Below, one piece after another: positions 47,183 to 64,000 of a stretch of 64,000 nt of DNA; position 1 is the first letter of the stretch, and every line of letters begins with the position of its first letter. The stretch is from Conexivisphaerales archaeon. GTDB lineage: Archaea > Thermoproteota > Nitrososphaeria > Conexivisphaerales > DTJL01. Below the pieces are notes generated by a model, which was given only the letters and a program-made list of their open reading frames with translations, had not been told where the DNA came from and did no database searches. Where the stretch lies: assembly GCA_038728585.1 (NCBI GenBank), contig JAVYTR010000004.1, positions 62,001 to 126,000 on the forward strand. Reading direction: 5' to 3'. Both the position numbers and the translations under genes were made by a program.

Positions 47183-48013
47183 ATGGAGAAGGTGGTGGTT
47201 GTCAACGATTGTGCACATGTCTTTGAAGACCTGATTCCTGAATTGAAGAACGATTATGAAATAGAATTCATACAGCGCACCAGGAGCTTGACATCAAAGA
47301 CTTTCAGTCTTCTCTGGCAGATACTAAGGGCTGATGGCAGCCTATATCATGTAAATTATGCTTTGCAGGATGCCTATCTTGTTAGCAAGCTGAAACATCA
47401 TCTTGATGTTCTGCATATACATGGCTCAGACATAAGGCAGACGATAGACACTTCAAAATATGGCTGGATGGTAAGAAGCAACCTGAAAAATGCTAGAAGA
47501 GTTGTCTACGCTACACCAGACCTCGAAGATAGGGTGAAAACATACAGAAACGATGCTGTCTATCTTCCCACGCCAGTAAGGCTTGATCTGTTCAACCTGA
47601 AGTCTCATTACAATCCAAAACCTGTCGCCTTGGCATTCAGACTTGCTTATGAAGAAATTCCTCCTTTGCTTATCGATGAGCTGAACAGATATGGCATTGA
47701 TTTGACTGTATTGGAAAGAAACATTCCTTACAGCAAGATGCCCGAAACACTTGCAAAATACGATATATTCATAGACAGGTTTACGATTCCTAGTCTCTCA
47801 AAAACATGCCTCGAAGCTATGAGCACAGGCCTGGCAACGATAGATTACAGGCATCTGGCCGACCTGTCTTCTAGAATAAGGTTTCTCTCTGACCCTTCGA
47901 ACGTCAAGGCTGCGGGAGAGGAGAATAGAAAGTATGTAGAAGCCAACCATGATTCAAAAGTTGTTGCCAAGAACCTTTCGCTGATCTGGGACGAGCTACT
48001 CCAGAAACGTTGA
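47183..48013 (+). CDS. Glycosyltransferase, GT4-like, short
   Basis: 276 residues. HIHGSDIRQTID near residue 78 and a C-terminal YDIFIDRFTIPSLSKTCLEAMSTGLATI match the GT4 acceptor and the E-x7-E type nucleotide-sugar site (Glu in CLEAMSTG). It is shorter than usual (about 350-400), with a reduced N-terminal half. It probably adds a sugar to a lipid-linked or protein glycan; the donor may come from the dehydrogenase next door. Confidence 0.72.
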   Translation: MEKVVVVNDCAHVFEDLIPELKNDYEIEFIQRTRSLTSKTFSLLWQILRADGSLYHVNYALQDAYLVSKLKHHLDVLHIHGSDIRQTIDTSKYGWMVRSNLKNARRVVYATPDLEDRVKTYRNDAVYLPTPVRLDLFNLKSHYNPKPVALAFRLAYEEIPPLLIDELNRYGIDLTVLERNIPYSKMPETLAKYDIFIDRFTIPSLSKTCLEAMSTGLATIDYRHLADLSSRIRFLSDPSNVKAAGEENRKYVEANHDSKVVAKNLSLIWDELLQKR

Positions 48014-58227: not shown

Positions 58228-58746
58228 ATGAGAGGTCAGACAGCTAGAATCCTGCAGAGAAGATCAGCAGAGTTACCTCATGCATCGCTTTTCATAGAAG
58301 ACGACTCTTTACATTTTGAGTATGGCCACTGTCTTCCAAGGAGCAAAAACTGTTCGGTTGTTCACGGGCACAGCTCAAGGATATCTGCTGAGCTATTCGG
58401 CGAAGTGGGGAAAGACGGTATGATAGTCGATTTCGGTGAAGCCAAGGATGTTATGAAGAGTGTTCTGAAGAAATTTGACCATAAGTTCATAGTAGGGAAA
58501 AGATATGCAGCTGTAAGAGGCAAGAGATGCCATATTTCATTCGACGGGCCCAACGGGCATATTGAAGTTGACATCCCATTAGCTCAGGCGATTTTGCTGG
58601 AGGGCGAAGCGACAAGTGAAAACATAGCTGCAGAAATAGCGAAAGAAATGTTGGAGAAGATGCCTGAGCAGGTGAAGGCCGTAAAGGCTTTCTTCTTCGA
58701 AGGTGCGAATAAGGGAGCTAGCCTCTTTAGGATGAGAAACAGTTGA
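58228..58746 (+). CDS. queD: 6-carboxytetrahydropterin synthase / 6-pyruvoyltetrahydropterin synthase family
   Basis: 172 residues. Zinc ligands His 34 (GH), His 46 and His 48 (HGHS), and catalytic Cys 42 (KNCSVVHGH) are present, with DFGEAKDVMKSVLKKFDHKF and a C-terminal Glu. Makes 6-carboxytetrahydropterin from dihydroneopterin triphosphate on the way to 7-cyano-7-deazaguanine. Position beside queC and mptA supports this over a plain PTPS role. Confidence 0.88.
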   Translation: MRGQTARILQRRSAELPHASLFIEDDSLHFEYGHCLPRSKNCSVVHGHSSRISAELFGEVGKDGMIVDFGEAKDVMKSVLKKFDHKFIVGKRYAAVRGKRCHISFDGPNGHIEVDIPLAQAILLEGEATSENIAAEIAKEMLEKMPEQVKAVKAFFFEGANKGASLFRMRNS

Positions 58747-59393
58747 AGTTGAAGGCTATCGTTCTTCTCTCTGGAGGAATAGATTCCGCTACAGTCCTTC
58801 ATATGTTTCTGAAAAGAGGCTATGACCTAACAGCGCTGACCTTTGACTATGAAGAAGAGAGGTCGATGGAGCTGGAAGCTGCAAAGGCGATAGCTCAAAA
58901 TGCAAAAGTTGAGCATCTTGTGTACCAGATAGAGTTTTACAAGAAACTTTCAGGCTCACCTTCTTCATCCCATGCCAAGATAGTTGACGATACCCATGGA
59001 ATGTCAAACGCATATGTTCCAGCAAGAAACGTTGTCTTTCTTGGTATGGCGACAGCTCTTGCTGAGACTATAGACGCTAAATTGATCCTGACAGGTCATA
59101 ACAGGGGCGATGCAAAGAGGTTCCCGGATGCTGATGCGAAGTTTTTAAGGGCCTTTAACAGAGTTATCGAGGTAGGCTTAAAAAATAAAGAAAGCAGGCC
59201 AAAGGTCAAGATGCCTCTGCGAAGATATGATAAGTTTCAGGTCTTGAAGAAGGCTATCAGGTTCGGCGTCCCACTCGAATTAACCTGGAGCTGCTACAAT
59301 AATGGACCCGAGCCATGCGGTATGTGCTACGGATGCATAAGCAGAAAGCAGGCATTTTATTCGCTGGGAGTTAGTGACCCTTGGAGAAAGTAA
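58743..59393 (+). CDS. queC: 7-cyano-7-deazaguanine synthase
   Basis: 216 residues. The PP-loop LLSGGIDSATVLHM near residue 8, the zinc motif CYNNGPEPCGMCYGC near residue 185, and LTGHNRGDAKRFPDAD in between. Converts 7-carboxy-7-deazaguanine to preQ0 using ammonia and ATP. The TTG start overlaps the queD stop as TTGA, showing coupling. QueE, the missing step, is not in the window. Confidence 0.9.
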   Translation: MKLKAIVLLSGGIDSATVLHMFLKRGYDLTALTFDYEEERSMELEAAKAIAQNAKVEHLVYQIEFYKKLSGSPSSSHAKIVDDTHGMSNAYVPARNVVFLGMATALAETIDAKLILTGHNRGDAKRFPDADAKFLRAFNRVIEVGLKNKESRPKVKMPLRRYDKFQVLKKAIRFGVPLELTWSCYNNGPEPCGMCYGCISRKQAFYSLGVSDPWRK

Positions 59394-60121
59394 AACTGAA
59401 TCTCGATGCAGACGTGCAGAGCGAATACAGAAGCACAAACGTGATGGCTGGCATAGAAAGACTCAGAGTCATGGTGAAATTTGCCAGCTTCACGCTGCCC
59501 GTAGAAATGACGATAACAACCAGAACCAACAGAACGAGAGGTGTACATATGAGCAGGCTTGTGGAAGCAGCCTTCAAGAATTCAGAGGTTAAGCACATAG
59601 AAGAAGGAATGGCCAGAATAATAGACGATGTGCAGAAGACTCAAGGGCCTGCCTATGTTTCTGTTAATTTCGATTATCCTTTCAAGGATGTATTTGTCAA
59701 AGTTAGAATCTCTCTCAAGGGGAAGAGGTTTCTCTACATGCTAAGTGTCCCTGGAATAACTGCATGCCCATGCAGCAGGGAAGTGGCAGGAATAGGTCAT
59801 ATGCAGAGAGCCTGGCTCAGCATAGCCATTCCAAGCAGGAAGTATGTCGATATCGAGGAAGTGATAGTCAAGATGCAAGAATGTTTTTCATCAACGACTT
59901 CTGAGCTGATGAAGAGGCCCGAAGAAGGGCTCAAGGTTCTTGACAGTCAGGCGAACCCGAAATTTGTTGAGGATGTGGTCAGAGATGCTGTCAAAAGGTT
60001 TCCAAACGCCATGATGATAAAGGCCAAGAGCGAAGAATCGATTCATATGCATGATGCAGTGGCTTATGTCTACAGGAAGAATTCAGCATCTTTTTTTGAT
60101 GAAATGCTCTGGTTTTCCTGA
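59381..60121 (+). CDS. mptA: GTP cyclohydrolase, FolE2/MptA type
   Basis: 246 residues. VKLNLDADVQSEYRSTNVMAG at the start is shared by FolE2/MptA; GITACPCSREVAGIGHMQRA near residue 125 is the metal/catalytic loop with the conserved Cys-Pro-Cys, and IHMHDAVAYV closes the domain. It makes dihydroneopterin triphosphate (FolE2) or the cyclic phosphate (MptA); the choice is not settled by sequence alone, but as QueD follows the folate-type route, FolE2-like output is expected. TTG start overlapping queC by 13 bases. Confidence 0.85.
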   Translation: MEKVKLNLDADVQSEYRSTNVMAGIERLRVMVKFASFTLPVEMTITTRTNRTRGVHMSRLVEAAFKNSEVKHIEEGMARIIDDVQKTQGPAYVSVNFDYPFKDVFVKVRISLKGKRFLYMLSVPGITACPCSREVAGIGHMQRAWLSIAIPSRKYVDIEEVIVKMQECFSSTTSELMKRPEEGLKVLDSQANPKFVEDVVRDAVKRFPNAMMIKAKSEESIHMHDAVAYVYRKNSASFFDEMLWFS

Positions 60122-60209
60122 TCTGTTTTCTGATTCGTGCAGCGCCTCACGATACAACACTAACCTACACTGCACTACCCTCCCCTCCCCCACCAGACAT
60201 GCGTGATTC

Positions 60210-60217
60210 ATTATATC
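60210..60217 (+). promoter_or_regulatory. TATA box of radA
   Basis: ATTATATC is centred about 29 bases before the ATG at 60243, after a C/T-rich stretch (60178-60196) that may end the mptA message. Confidence 0.5.
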
Positions 60218-60242: not shown

Positions 60243-61223
60243 ATGAAGGCTGCAGAGGTACCGCTAAGCAAGGTTGATGGTATAGCAGAAAGAGCAGAAG
60301 AAAAGCTGAGGGAATCAGGCATAACTTCAGCGTATGAGCTTGCCTCATCGCTACCTGACGAGATAATTCAGGTAATAGGAGGTGATATGCAGAACGCAGC
60401 TCTGCTGATATCCAACGCAAGGGCATGCCTTGCAAAAAGAGGTCTTATTCTGGAAGACTTTGTGAAAGCAAGCGATATAGCAAGGAGGAAGAACGATGTA
60501 ATAGCTTGCACTACAGGCTCAAGGGCGCTCGATAACCTGCTTGGAGGGGGGATAGAGACAAAAGCTGTTACAGAATTTTTTGGAGCGTTTGGCTCGGGAA
60601 AATCACAGCTCTGCCATACGTTATCTGTTCTCTGCAACCTGCCTGTTGAAAAAGGAGGACTGGATGGAGGTGCAATATACGTAGATACTGAAGGGACGTT
60701 CAGGGTAAACAGGCTATCTGAAATAGCCAGGACAAGGGGAATGGATGAAGCTTTTGTGCTTGATAGAATACTCTACAGCAGGACGTATGATGTTCAGCAT
60801 CTGATAGCTGTGGTAAGAGCGCTGGGAGAACAGGTGAGGAAGAATTCCATAAGGCTCATAGTAATAGATAGCGTGATAAACCTGTTTAGGTCTGAATATA
60901 TAGGAAGAGAGACACTTGCTGAGAGGCAGCAGAAGCTGAATACGCTAATGCACAGGTTGCGCAACGTTGCAGAGGTCTACAACGTAGCTGTAGTGATAAC
61001 AAACCAGGTGCAGGCTGTACCCAATACATTCTTCGGAGACCCAAACAGACCGGCTGGAGGGCATGTGCTCGCTCATGGTTCAACTTACAGAATATATCTG
61101 AGAAAGGCTGGAGAAGAGAGAATAGCCGCGATGGTGGACAGTCCAAGTCATCCTTATTCAGAAGCCAGGTTCACGATAGGTTCTGCAGGTGTATGCGATA
61201 CCAGCAGTCCAGAAGAGAACTGA
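60243..61223 (+). CDS. radA: DNA repair and recombination protein RadA
   Basis: 326 residues. N-terminal helix-hairpin-helix (LSKVDGIAERAEEKLRESG), Walker A FFGAFGSGKSQLCHT near residue 118, IYVDTEGTFR, Walker B LIVIDSVINLFR, and L2-type region NQVQAVPNTFFGDPN with HVLAHGSTYR. The archaeal Rad51/RecA orthologue for strand exchange. Its length is normal. It overlaps or nearly touches the RadA-like paralogue behind it. Confidence 0.93.
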   Translation: MKAAEVPLSKVDGIAERAEEKLRESGITSAYELASSLPDEIIQVIGGDMQNAALLISNARACLAKRGLILEDFVKASDIARRKNDVIACTTGSRALDNLLGGGIETKAVTEFFGAFGSGKSQLCHTLSVLCNLPVEKGGLDGGAIYVDTEGTFRVNRLSEIARTRGMDEAFVLDRILYSRTYDVQHLIAVVRALGEQVRKNSIRLIVIDSVINLFRSEYIGRETLAERQQKLNTLMHRLRNVAEVYNVAVVITNQVQAVPNTFFGDPNRPAGGHVLAHGSTYRIYLRKAGEERIAAMVDSPSHPYSEARFTIGSAGVCDTSSPEEN

Positions 61224-61239
61224 GAGGCTAGTGAAGAAA

Positions 61240-62277
61240 ATGCATTCTCTGGTAAAGGCTTCACAGCTCAAGAAAGATGGCAGGTACATAATGACAGGCA
61301 TAGAGGAGATTGACAAGCTGGTAGGCAGGCTGGAGGGAGGGAACACTTATCTCTTCTACGGGGATGAAGAATTCATCGACGAGCTTGTTCACAGACTTAT
61401 GGTTAGAGCTGCTGGTGAAGGAAAAGTTGCATACATGAACAATACAGACTATCACACAGCGAAAACACTGCTGGACCTTGACAGGATAGCGTTCTATGCG
61501 AAGAGAGAAGGGGTTGAGCCTTCTCATGTAATGAAGAAGGTCTTCTTTGGTGCTGCGTACAACGAACTCAGACAACCTTTAGTTGCTGAAGCTCTTGCAG
61601 AAAGAATCGACAAAGACTGCATCATGCTGATAATGCATAACACGACAAGATTCTTGGCAGATTCCAAAGATAAAAGAAGCACGCTTGAAGCTATGGATAT
61701 TTCAGTATCAAAGCTATGGCACAAAGCAATGCAAAACGGTCTGATAGTTGTTATCACATGCGACACAGCGATGATGCAGAACGAGAACGCAAGGCTCCCT
61801 GTGCCAGCAGGAAGCAGCCTGCTCAGACAGATAGCTAGGGTTTCTGTGTTTTTTCGCAGGGTGCAGGATGGACTTTATGCAGCAACCCTTGTCAAGCATC
61901 CAGAGAAGAAGATTCCGGAGTCTGCAGCAATATCATACGCTGAAGGTGATGCTATCATGGGTAGGATGACGCCTTCGTTCAGGCAGGTGTACCAATCGCT
62001 GCTTGAGAGGCTGAGAAACAATTACCTTCCTCTGCTCAGAAACGAAAAGGAAAGAAGGGCGTTCGAGAGGCTCGTCAGTGATGCCTGGGACAAGGAGCAT
62101 GCAGCGATGGCAAATTCCCAGCTTCCGCTGGTCCTTGATGCCATGAACCTGACAGCAAACGTTCACAACTCTGCTGAGATAGAGAAGCTCGCAGAGGAGG
62201 TGAGGGAGTTGAAGGCTGCTGTCGAGGAACTGAAGAGTCTCGTTCAGAAACAGAAGGACAACCCAGATAAGGGGTGA
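61240..62277 (+). CDS. RecA-fold protein (RadA/RadB-like paralogue) without a P-loop
   Basis: 345 residues from the ATG at 61240 (GTG at 61231 is also possible; both follow GAGAGG in the end of radA). The pattern of GIEEIDKLVGRLEGGNTYLFYG parallels the RecA core, yet the Walker A place reads YGDEEFIDELV, with no GKT/S, so ATP hydrolysis is unlikely. The C-terminus has a coiled coil (IEKLAEEVRELKAAVEELKS). Co-encoded with radA and the polymerase; a regulatory or loading partner is inferred. Confidence 0.72.
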   Translation: MHSLVKASQLKKDGRYIMTGIEEIDKLVGRLEGGNTYLFYGDEEFIDELVHRLMVRAAGEGKVAYMNNTDYHTAKTLLDLDRIAFYAKREGVEPSHVMKKVFFGAAYNELRQPLVAEALAERIDKDCIMLIMHNTTRFLADSKDKRSTLEAMDISVSKLWHKAMQNGLIVVITCDTAMMQNENARLPVPAGSSLLRQIARVSVFFRRVQDGLYAATLVKHPEKKIPESAAISYAEGDAIMGRMTPSFRQVYQSLLERLRNNYLPLLRNEKERRAFERLVSDAWDKEHAAMANSQLPLVLDAMNLTANVHNSAEIEKLAEEVRELKAAVEELKSLVQKQKDNPDKG

Positions 62278-62284
62278 ATGCAGG

Positions 62285-64000
62285 TTGGAAGAAGAGGGAT
62301 GGCTTCTGGATGTGTACATAACAGGTAAGGGTCTAGCTGTACTATGGATGAAGACACAGGATGGAAGGACTGTAAGGCTGGTTGACAGATACACCCCAAC
62401 CTTTTACGTGAAGCCGAAGGGCTGGGGTGAAGAATGGGAGCTAAGTCGACTGCTATCTGAAAGCCAGGCTGTAAACTCTGTTTACACGGAAGAAAAGTAT
62501 GTCTCACTCTCGTCTGTGAAGAAGGAAAAGCTGATCAGGGTTGAGGCAACAGGCCTTAAAGAATACAGAAGCCTGGTCAATGGTCTGAGGAGAAGCCAGC
62601 TTGTTTCTGCGTTGTATGATGCTGATTTGAGGCATGTTCAGAAGTACCTTTTCACCAGGCTTGGTATTGAGCCGACCAGCAGGGTGAAGTTTGGATATGA
62701 TGGAGAGAAGCTCGTCTGGATAAGCAAGGTTGAAGACGATGAATCTCTGCCTTTCTCACTTGCAAGGGTTGAATATGAATATGAGGGCGATGCTGGTAAT
62801 CTCAGGATAAAGTACATCGACTCTTCAGCTGCTGAAGAGATAAAGGGTGAAAGGAGAGAGATAGCAGCAGAGCTTTATGCTTTGTTCAAAGAAAGGGACC
62901 CGGACATAATAATACTGCCAAAGTGTGATAAGGTTGGCTTCCCATTCCTGAAGGGCCTGCTCGATTCTGCAAAGCTGAGCATAGCCAGATATGATGACGG
63001 TGAGCAGGTAGCGCTTCAGGGTTCTTGGGGAGGGAGGATATTCATAGGAGAGAGCATGATAGGCCATGCAGCCGAGCTCTGGGGAGTTGCTGGGATGGTT
63101 GAAAGGGCCAGGTTCAGCTTTCTGCCTCTTGGCCTTTCTGCCAGATGGCTGAGCAATAAGAGCATAGATTCAAGGAACTGCTATGAGCTGATGAAGATGG
63201 GCTATGCGATTCCTGAACAGGGATACTTTGAACCTATCAGGGAGCTGCAGCAACTTCTTGAAAGGGATAGGGGTGGCATATCGATAACCCCTATATCTGG
63301 TCTGCTGCATCACAACGTTGCCGCACTTGATTTTGATTCCCAGTATCCGAATATAATACTGAAGGGAGACCTGAGCTATGAGAAGCCCGGGTTAATCGAC
63401 CAGGTGCAGGAGCAGGCTGGAAGAGGGCTGATTTCCATAGTCATAGAGCCATGGCTGAGAAGAAGGCTGGAACTGAAGAAGCTGAAGAAGACCCTTGCGA
63501 AGGGCAGCGAAAAGAGGCTTGTCTGTGAACAGAGGATAGATGCTCTGAAGCTTATCCTCGTGACTTCATACGGTATATCGGGCTGCTGCTGGAACAGGTT
63601 TGGTAATGTGCTGACTTTCGAAGAGATCAACAGGAGGTCCAGAGATGCCATGCTGAAGGCAAAAGCGATAGCTGAAGAGAAGGGGTTCGAAATTGTATAC
63701 AGTGATGTTGACAGTCTGTTTGTAAAAAAGGCGGATGCTGAAAGAAGCGATTATGAAAGGCTTGCAGATACGATAGCTGGTGTAACAGGCCTTCCCATGT
63801 CCCTTGATAAGCACTTTAAATTCATAGCCTTTCCGAGGCTGAAGAATGATATTTCTTCCTCAGCGTTGAAGAGATATTTTGGCATAACCTATGATGGAGA
63901 GGTCGAGGCTAGAGGGATTGAACTCAGGAGGGATGATGCTCCAGAATTTGTGAAAGAGTTTCAGAGAAGCCTGATAATAGCTCTGATGAACCATGATACA
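62285..64000 (+). CDS. Family B DNA polymerase, degenerate exonuclease motifs, cut by window end
   Basis: Open from a TTG at 62285 to the window edge (572 codons). Motif A reads ALDFDSQYPNIIL (Asp 349; usual DFxSLYPSI), motif B DALKLILVTSYG, motif C VYSDVDSLFV (Asp 474 and 476), so polymerisation is likely. The exonuclease I motif, usually DIE, is replaced around residues 158-168 (SLARVEYEYEG), and the second is changed, so proofreading is doubtful. The shortened spacing and motif changes resemble archaeal PolB2 (Dpo2). GGTGA lies seven bases before the TTG. Confidence 0.82.
   Translation, partial: MEEEGWLLDVYITGKGLAVLWMKTQDGRTVRLVDRYTPTFYVKPKGWGEEWELSRLLSESQAVNSVYTEEKYVSLSSVKKEKLIRVEATGLKEYRSLVNGLRRSQLVSALYDADLRHVQKYLFTRLGIEPTSRVKFGYDGEKLVWISKVEDDESLPFSLARVEYEYEGDAGNLRIKYIDSSAAEEIKGERREIAAELYALFKERDPDIIILPKCDKVGFPFLKGLLDSAKLSIARYDDGEQVALQGSWGGRIFIGESMIGHAAELWGVAGMVERARFSFLPLGLSARWLSNKSIDSRNCYELMKMGYAIPEQGYFEPIRELQQLLERDRGGISITPISGLLHHNVAALDFDSQYPNIILKGDLSYEKPGLIDQVQEQAGRGLISIVIEPWLRRRLELKKLKKTLAKGSEKRLVCEQRIDALKLILVTSYGISGCCWNRFGNVLTFEEINRRSRDAMLKAKAIAEEKGFEIVYSDVDSLFVKKADAERSDYERLADTIAGVTGLPMSLDKHFKFIAFPRLKNDISSSALKRYFGITYDGEVEARGIELRRDDAPEFVKEFQRSLIIALMNHDT

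Follow-up and report, generated by a model that had tools for sequence, protein, structure and literature searches.

How does an archaeal translesion-synthesis (TLS) polymerase find damaged DNA? This question is touched by a three-gene operon at the end of a 64,000-nucleotide stretch from a Conexivisphaerales archaeon (GenBank assembly GCA_038728585.1, contig JAVYTR010000004.1; G000:C4:62001-126000), called here the window, whose source genome measures 1.93 Mb and is 99.6% complete. A first interpretation of this DNA, made from its letters and open reading frames (ORFs) and named below the sequence-only reading, had described a RadA, a RadA paralogue and a B-family DNA polymerase packed head to tail, and had seen in them a possible mutasome. 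The ORF list of the window does contain these three genes on the same (+) strand, and the interpretation is right, even if it was already in print. The trio is a PolB2 mutasome (PolB2, iRadA and PPB2), as proposed by Timinskas in 2025 (PMC11791011); the operon link was described by Makarova in 2014 (PMC4104785). Three features look new, namely a dedicated, intact second RadA (RadA2) heading the operon, an FxxA motif in iRadA and a C-tract in the promoter. None of them is in the main text of PMC11791011, although its supplement may hold the RadA neighbour. The locus is probably a PolB2-type TLS operon encoding RadA2, an iRadA-PPB2 fusion and PolB2, in which RadA2 would form a filament and iRadA would act as a cap delivering the polymerase.

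The three gene products

The polymerase was assigned by alignment and phylogeny. Motif A (LDFDSQYP, D349) and motif C (YSDVDS, D474/D476) are intact in the alignment and the residues of ExoI, ExoII and ExoIII are absent; Pfam recognizes DNA_pol_B alone in this protein, whereas the other PolB of the same genome has an exonuclease domain. A branch with SH-aLRT 100 divides the tree of 69 polymerases: on one side stand 52 PolB2 rows, that of the window among them, and on the other the genome's own PolB1 (L005) and 16 other PolBs. Tree and motifs together exclude a PolB1 or PolB3 identity, and the sequence-only reading, which had noted the retained aspartates and the lost exonuclease residues, is borne out on both. 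Its mention of PolB2/Dpo2 as a known damage-linked polymerase is also accurate: the Sulfolobus islandicus enzyme extends mismatches and lesions and is required experimentally for damage mutagenesis (PMC7390963, PMC8764526). The AlphaFold2 (AF2) model of the polymerase (pLDDT 90; all our structure models are of single chains) finds the archaeal PolB 5mdn as its best PDB match and also matches Escherichia coli Pol II. A strongly conserved segment of the alignment, VERARFSFLPLGLSARW...IDSR, is a candidate counterpart of the published D(K/R) motif.

Two other candidate motifs of the polymerase were rejected. An apparently surviving ExoI D-x-E (YDGE, from a phmmer alignment) is not conserved among PolB2 homologues and was taken as chance, and a C-terminal PCNA-binding motif (GATLLDYST, resembling the PolB1 C-terminus GATKLEDFFFG) is weak and not conserved. 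In the PolB2 proteins of near relatives L103, L104 and L063 the first aspartate of motif C is gone (YGAVDS, YCAVDS), which indicates repeated loss of DxD inside a DxD-bearing clade.

The middle ORF starts more likely at the ATG 61240 than at the alternative GTG 61189; the gap after RadA2 is 16 nt with the former and becomes an overlap with the latter, and 7 nt separate its end from polB. Its matches to the RadA family are weak (E 2e-5 to 1e-3) and the motif alignment shows no Walker A, but the AF2 model (pLDDT 83) matches RAD51-family structures in Foldseek (E about 1e-14 to 2e-14), RAD51 filaments capped by RAD51 paralogues being among the best matches. The protein is therefore a RadA/RAD51 core devoid of Walker A and of the N-terminal helix-hairpin-helix (HhH) domain, much as the sequence-only reading had described it. 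Near its N-terminus, the peptide LVKA aligns with the FVKA polymerization motif of RadA. The first hydrophobic position is F, M, L, V or I in all 33 homologues, and the position three residues further on holds Ala in 31 and Ser in 2 of them, in many cases within KAS or RAS; the Walker A lysine is found in none of the 33. The peptide lies within the first 12 residues of the model, which are of low confidence, as expected of a docking peptide.

That reading was incomplete in taking the middle gene as a plain RadA paralogue, since it missed a PPB2 fused to its end. The last 107 codons (stop included) encode an MGRT-type N-terminal arm, MGRM here, followed by three helices modelled at residues 247-261, 269-293 and 301-340, and the PPB2 hidden Markov model matches stand-alone PPB2 genes in Calditenuaceae; a loss of PPB2 from the operon is thus excluded. 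An internal Shine-Dalgarno sequence precedes the arm. Of 20 fused homologues, 16 have a match of at least 5 nt at this place, compared with 10% of the other codons of these genes (p about 5e-13 by a binomial test, a value that overstates independence, the homologues being related). In three fused homologues the arm codon is TTG or GTG, which fits its use as a start codon. PPB2 is thus probably made also as a free protein from the internal start, and iRadA-PPB2 fusions with an internal Shine-Dalgarno enrichment are on record (PMC11791011).

The first gene had been taken simply as RadA. It is in fact an extra paralogue. The protein matches Rad51 (PF08423, 282 bits) and the NCBIfam RadA family (PRK04301, 376 bits, above cut-off), and carries the HhH N-terminal domain, FVKA, Walker A (GSGKSQ), Walker B (VIDS) and the L2 loop and ATP-cap residues. 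The possibility that it is the sole canonical RadA is excluded by a canonical gene on contig C6 (L061:4077-5846, - strand), located beside Nop5/fibrillarin-like and AsnS-like genes and split right in the P-loop (GSGK/SQ) by an intein of about 260 aa. Inteins were also seen in the RadA of G307 and G104, and an apparent P-loop intein (GSGKCVTGDTPV...HNTVTQQ) like that of the canonical RadA is present in the V/A-type ATPase subunit A gene of the window's source genome (L005:7182-8999, contig C9).

Features of the operon (positions in the window; + strand)
Feature	Position	Strand	Basis
C-tract CCCCTCCCCC, ahead of the operon promoter	60182..60191	+	exact 10-mer at related operons
Putative core promoter CATGCGTG-N5-TTATAT	60198..60216	+	conserved in family f1
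Second intact RadA (RadA2), 326 aa	60243..61223	+	PF08423, NCBIfam RadA, motifs, own clade
iRadA-PPB2 fusion, 345 aa	61240..62277	+	weak RadA matches, alignment, AF2 model, Foldseek RAD51
FxxA-like motif LVKA, iRadA N-terminus	61249..61260	+	aligns with RadA FVKA
Internal Shine-Dalgarno AGGTGAT	61944..61950	+	spacing of 6 nt to the PPB2 start codon
PPB2 module (arCOG07300), 106 aa, MGRMTPSFRQ arm and three helices	61957..62277	+	MGRT-type motif, model
PolB2, 708 aa, TTG start	62285..64000, on to 64411 (G000:C4:126411)	+	PolB2 clade, motifs, model

The window end cuts the polymerase gene, which stops beyond it. QueD-, QueC- and FolE2-like genes of the 7-deazaguanine pathway (58228-60121) immediately precede the operon in the same orientation; QueD- and QueC-like genes are likewise found near the operon in L102. 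No Rfam family was found in the window.

A proposed recombinase filament as a landing site for PolB2

The association of RadA with this mutasome is not limited to a single genome. In 17 loci a RadA immediately precedes iRadA in the same orientation, which gives the order RadA-iRadA-(PPB2)-PolB2. These loci come from all four members of f1, two of f59, six Calditenuaceae, one each in Brockarchaeota, Bathyarchaeota and Geothermarchaeota, a Nitrososphaerales metagenome-assembled genome, and G048. The co-occurrence on which the sequence-only reading had staked its case therefore holds. Canonical RadA is encoded elsewhere in the hosts examined as whole genomes. In the RadA tree, 16 of the 17 operon RadAs fall into one clade (95/88) together with three RadAs from outside such operons, and the canonical RadAs of Calditenuaceae lie in another part; the 17th, from G048, clusters with a second RadA that stands alone in f14 (100/93), so that RadA was recruited at least twice. 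The identity of canonical RadA tracks the hosts (69% between f1 and f59, 48% between f1 and f32, a Calditenuaceae family), whereas RadA2 gives 42% for f1-f59 and 46% for f1-Calditenuaceae and PolB2 gives 38% and 45%. RadA2 and PolB2 share this non-host pattern of distances and were co-inherited, a faster evolution in f59 being a possible contributor. Orc1/Cdc6-like and DUF72-like genes adjoin RadA2 operons (these identities, like those of the other regulatory genes named below, come from reading the sequences), and similar neighbours are on record for damage-linked PolB2 loci (PMC11791011). In G248 (L080:3287-4607, - strand), iRadA does not seem to come first in the operon: an RPA-like single-strand-binding protein and a small ORF appear to lie ahead of it, preceded by a C-tract and by an Orc1/Cdc6-like gene of divergent orientation.

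The gene identities, the fusion with its internal ribosome-binding site, the conserved operon, the separate RadA clade and the FxxA motif were directly observed, and the following mechanism is proposed for them. RadA2, with its intact ATPase motifs, would form a filament on damaged single-stranded DNA as the dedicated partner of the polymerase. Since iRadA has kept the RadA polymerization motif, it could cap this filament and dock PolB2 there, its RadA core devoid of P-loop contributing the FxxA donor. PolB2 delivered by the cap would then extend past lesions, with one PPB2 N-terminal arm reaching toward its active site and free PPB2 from the internal start completing a PPB2 trimer. In the models published for relatives, a beta-alpha segment of PolB2 that resembles RadA and precedes D(K/R) makes the contact with iRadA, PolB2 fills the iRadA acceptor pocket, and the PPB2 arm nears the active site (PMC11791011); the donor motif of iRadA would thereby be left free for RadA. 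Complex formation, docking on the filament, damage induction and a mutagenic role are all predictions from sequences and models.

Several observations weigh against this proposal. Docking of iRadA on RadA by its own FxxA is not described in the published models (PMC11791011). The adjacent RadA is absent from about half of the DxD-clade operons, and is thus not obligatory. The MGR arm is missing from L104, a near relative, through loss. Finally, in Calditenuaceae the FxxA of RadA2 is degenerate (LMTG) in six of six operon copies (L064-L073), Walker A remaining intact, which makes filament formation by these proteins doubtful.

The best-surviving alternative is a plain PolB2-iRadA-PPB2 mutasome whose upstream RadA serves recombination, shares the regulation of the operon and takes no physical part in the polymerase complex. 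RadA is missing from many operons of this PolB2 clade, the published heteropentamer PolB2:iRadA:PPB2(3) does without it (PMC11791011), and the related RadA of f17 stands alone. This alternative, which we place somewhat short of an even chance, accounts less well for a separate paralogue clade that in these 17 loci always stands immediately upstream in the same orientation, for its co-inheritance with polB2 against the host phylogeny, and for the RadA-docking motif kept by iRadA. An improbable alternative is a recombination-associated repair polymerase, in which PolB2 would prolong the strand that invades a D-loop made by RadA2 and would bypass few lesions. The intact recombinase next to the polymerase, a PolB2 model close to replicative PolB structures and the intact DxD would suit it, but the lost exonuclease, the retained PPB2 and iRadA, and the mutagenic behaviour of S. 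islandicus PolB2 cited above (PMC8764526; PMC7390963) do not. Most improbable here is the older idea of an inactivated PolB2, predicted early (PMC4104785), according to which the protein would regulate replication as a PolB paralogue of weak catalysis or of structural role: all polymerase aspartates are present, and even a PolB2 without DxD is enzymatically active (PMC8764526).

A C-tract in front of the operon

The RadA2 filament proposal gains a possible regulatory side from the region preceding the operon. The distance from a TATA-like box to the RadA start at 60243 is about 27-32 nt, which makes a leaderless transcript from this start plausible. The core CATGCRTG-N5-TTATAT is present in all four f1 members (L004, L102, L103, L104). 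The exact 10-mer CCCCTCCCCC precedes the mutasome operon in f1, f59, f30 and Nitrososphaerales L123; in f59 it stands before the first operon gene, whether RadA2 or iRadA. In L112, and with 9 of 10 bases in L080, the C-tract separates the operon from a pair of Orc1/Cdc6-like and winged helix-turn-helix genes of divergent orientation. It is absent or weak in f7 and in most Calditenuaceae operons.

Outside the operons, the 10-mer stands before two lone genes, that of the RadA2 clade in f17 and the second RadA in f14. Counted over whole genomes, it occurs a single time in G309 and G312 and twice in G310 and G288; the second copy of G288 and one in G149 precede a gene resembling transcription factor B (TFB). 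A second RadA with a C-tract promoter was also seen in L248 (G213:C12, about 47348-47500) as an N-terminal fragment at a contig end, and the relatives G225 and G289 have the same second RadA whole.

A genome-wide regulon in the organism of the window is not supported: its genome has four exact copies, the other three lie inside long ORFs, no further promoter copies were found, and one-mismatch counts are not above a reversed control. A scan of 300 genomes for the C-tract with a TATA box is noisy, 107 genomes matching, many at unrelated genes; the 10-mer is common in GC-rich genomes, and many matches elsewhere are unrelated. In G249 (f5, e.g. L242), about 35 copies of CCCCTCCCCC are followed by TTTCTGCATACAATTAAAAT, either a dispersed element or a large regulon; they look like a dispersed element. 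No description of the C-tract was found in the literature searched, and the damage motif of Sulfolobus is a different hexanucleotide (PMC5817253).

A bolder version of the proposal would join all parts in a four-part mutasome, with a RadA2 filament, an iRadA cap held by FxxA and PolB2-PPB2 carried on it, under a damage regulon defined by CCCCTCCCCC before TATA, the C-tract being a putative operator common to lone second RadAs and TFB genes. This version is rather doubtful. In Sulfolobales, the damage regulon relies on a hexanucleotide/Orc1-2 system, and an element conserved in promoters would offer first access to such a regulon outside this order. To our knowledge, PolB2 mutasomes have been modelled and none has been reconstituted so far. 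An own intact RadA and an adaptor without ATPase but with a polymerization motif would provide a concrete architecture, comparable to Pol V on a RecA filament and open to point-mutation tests.

Comparison with known systems

The mutasome itself is known, and the operon of the window differs from it by its own RadA and its promoter. It has in common with the published PolB2 mutasome and the S. islandicus Dpo2 system the three components with their same-strand adjacency, an iRadA devoid of ATPase site and N-terminal domain, the MGRT-type PPB2 arm, the exonuclease decay, the iRadA-PPB2 fusion with internal Shine-Dalgarno, and a DxD kept as in some TACK PolB2 (PMC11791011, PMC4104785). Unlike the published system, it has an intact second RadA at its head, an FxxA noted in iRadA and a C-tract promoter.

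The sequence-only reading had drawn a parallel with ImuA. The shared principle stands, a RecA-like accessory protein being encoded with a mutagenic polymerase in the bacterial ImuA-ImuB-DnaE2 system too, but the operon has neither ImuB nor DnaE2, and beyond the RecA fold no subunit is common. In the caps formed by the RAD51 paralogues XRCC3-RAD51C-RAD51D-XRCC2, RAD51-fold proteins close a RAD51 filament, and such capped filaments are among the best structural matches of iRadA; these caps carry no polymerase, and iRadA differs from them in having lost P-loop and N-terminal domain. Pol V of E. coli (UmuC-UmuD'2-RecA) is the better parallel. UmuC binds RecA by a filament-type contact, and both systems would thus combine an error-prone polymerase with a RecA-family protein through such a contact, a small arm-bearing subunit and a role for an active recombinase. 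The polymerase is of the Y-family there and of the B-family here, PPB2 is not UmuD', and an additional inactive RadA would serve here as intermediate. As the only polymerase of the operon belongs to the B-family, with no Y-family UmuC/ImuB or C-family DnaE2 encoded in it, the archaeal system would work like Pol V rather than be a member of its kind.

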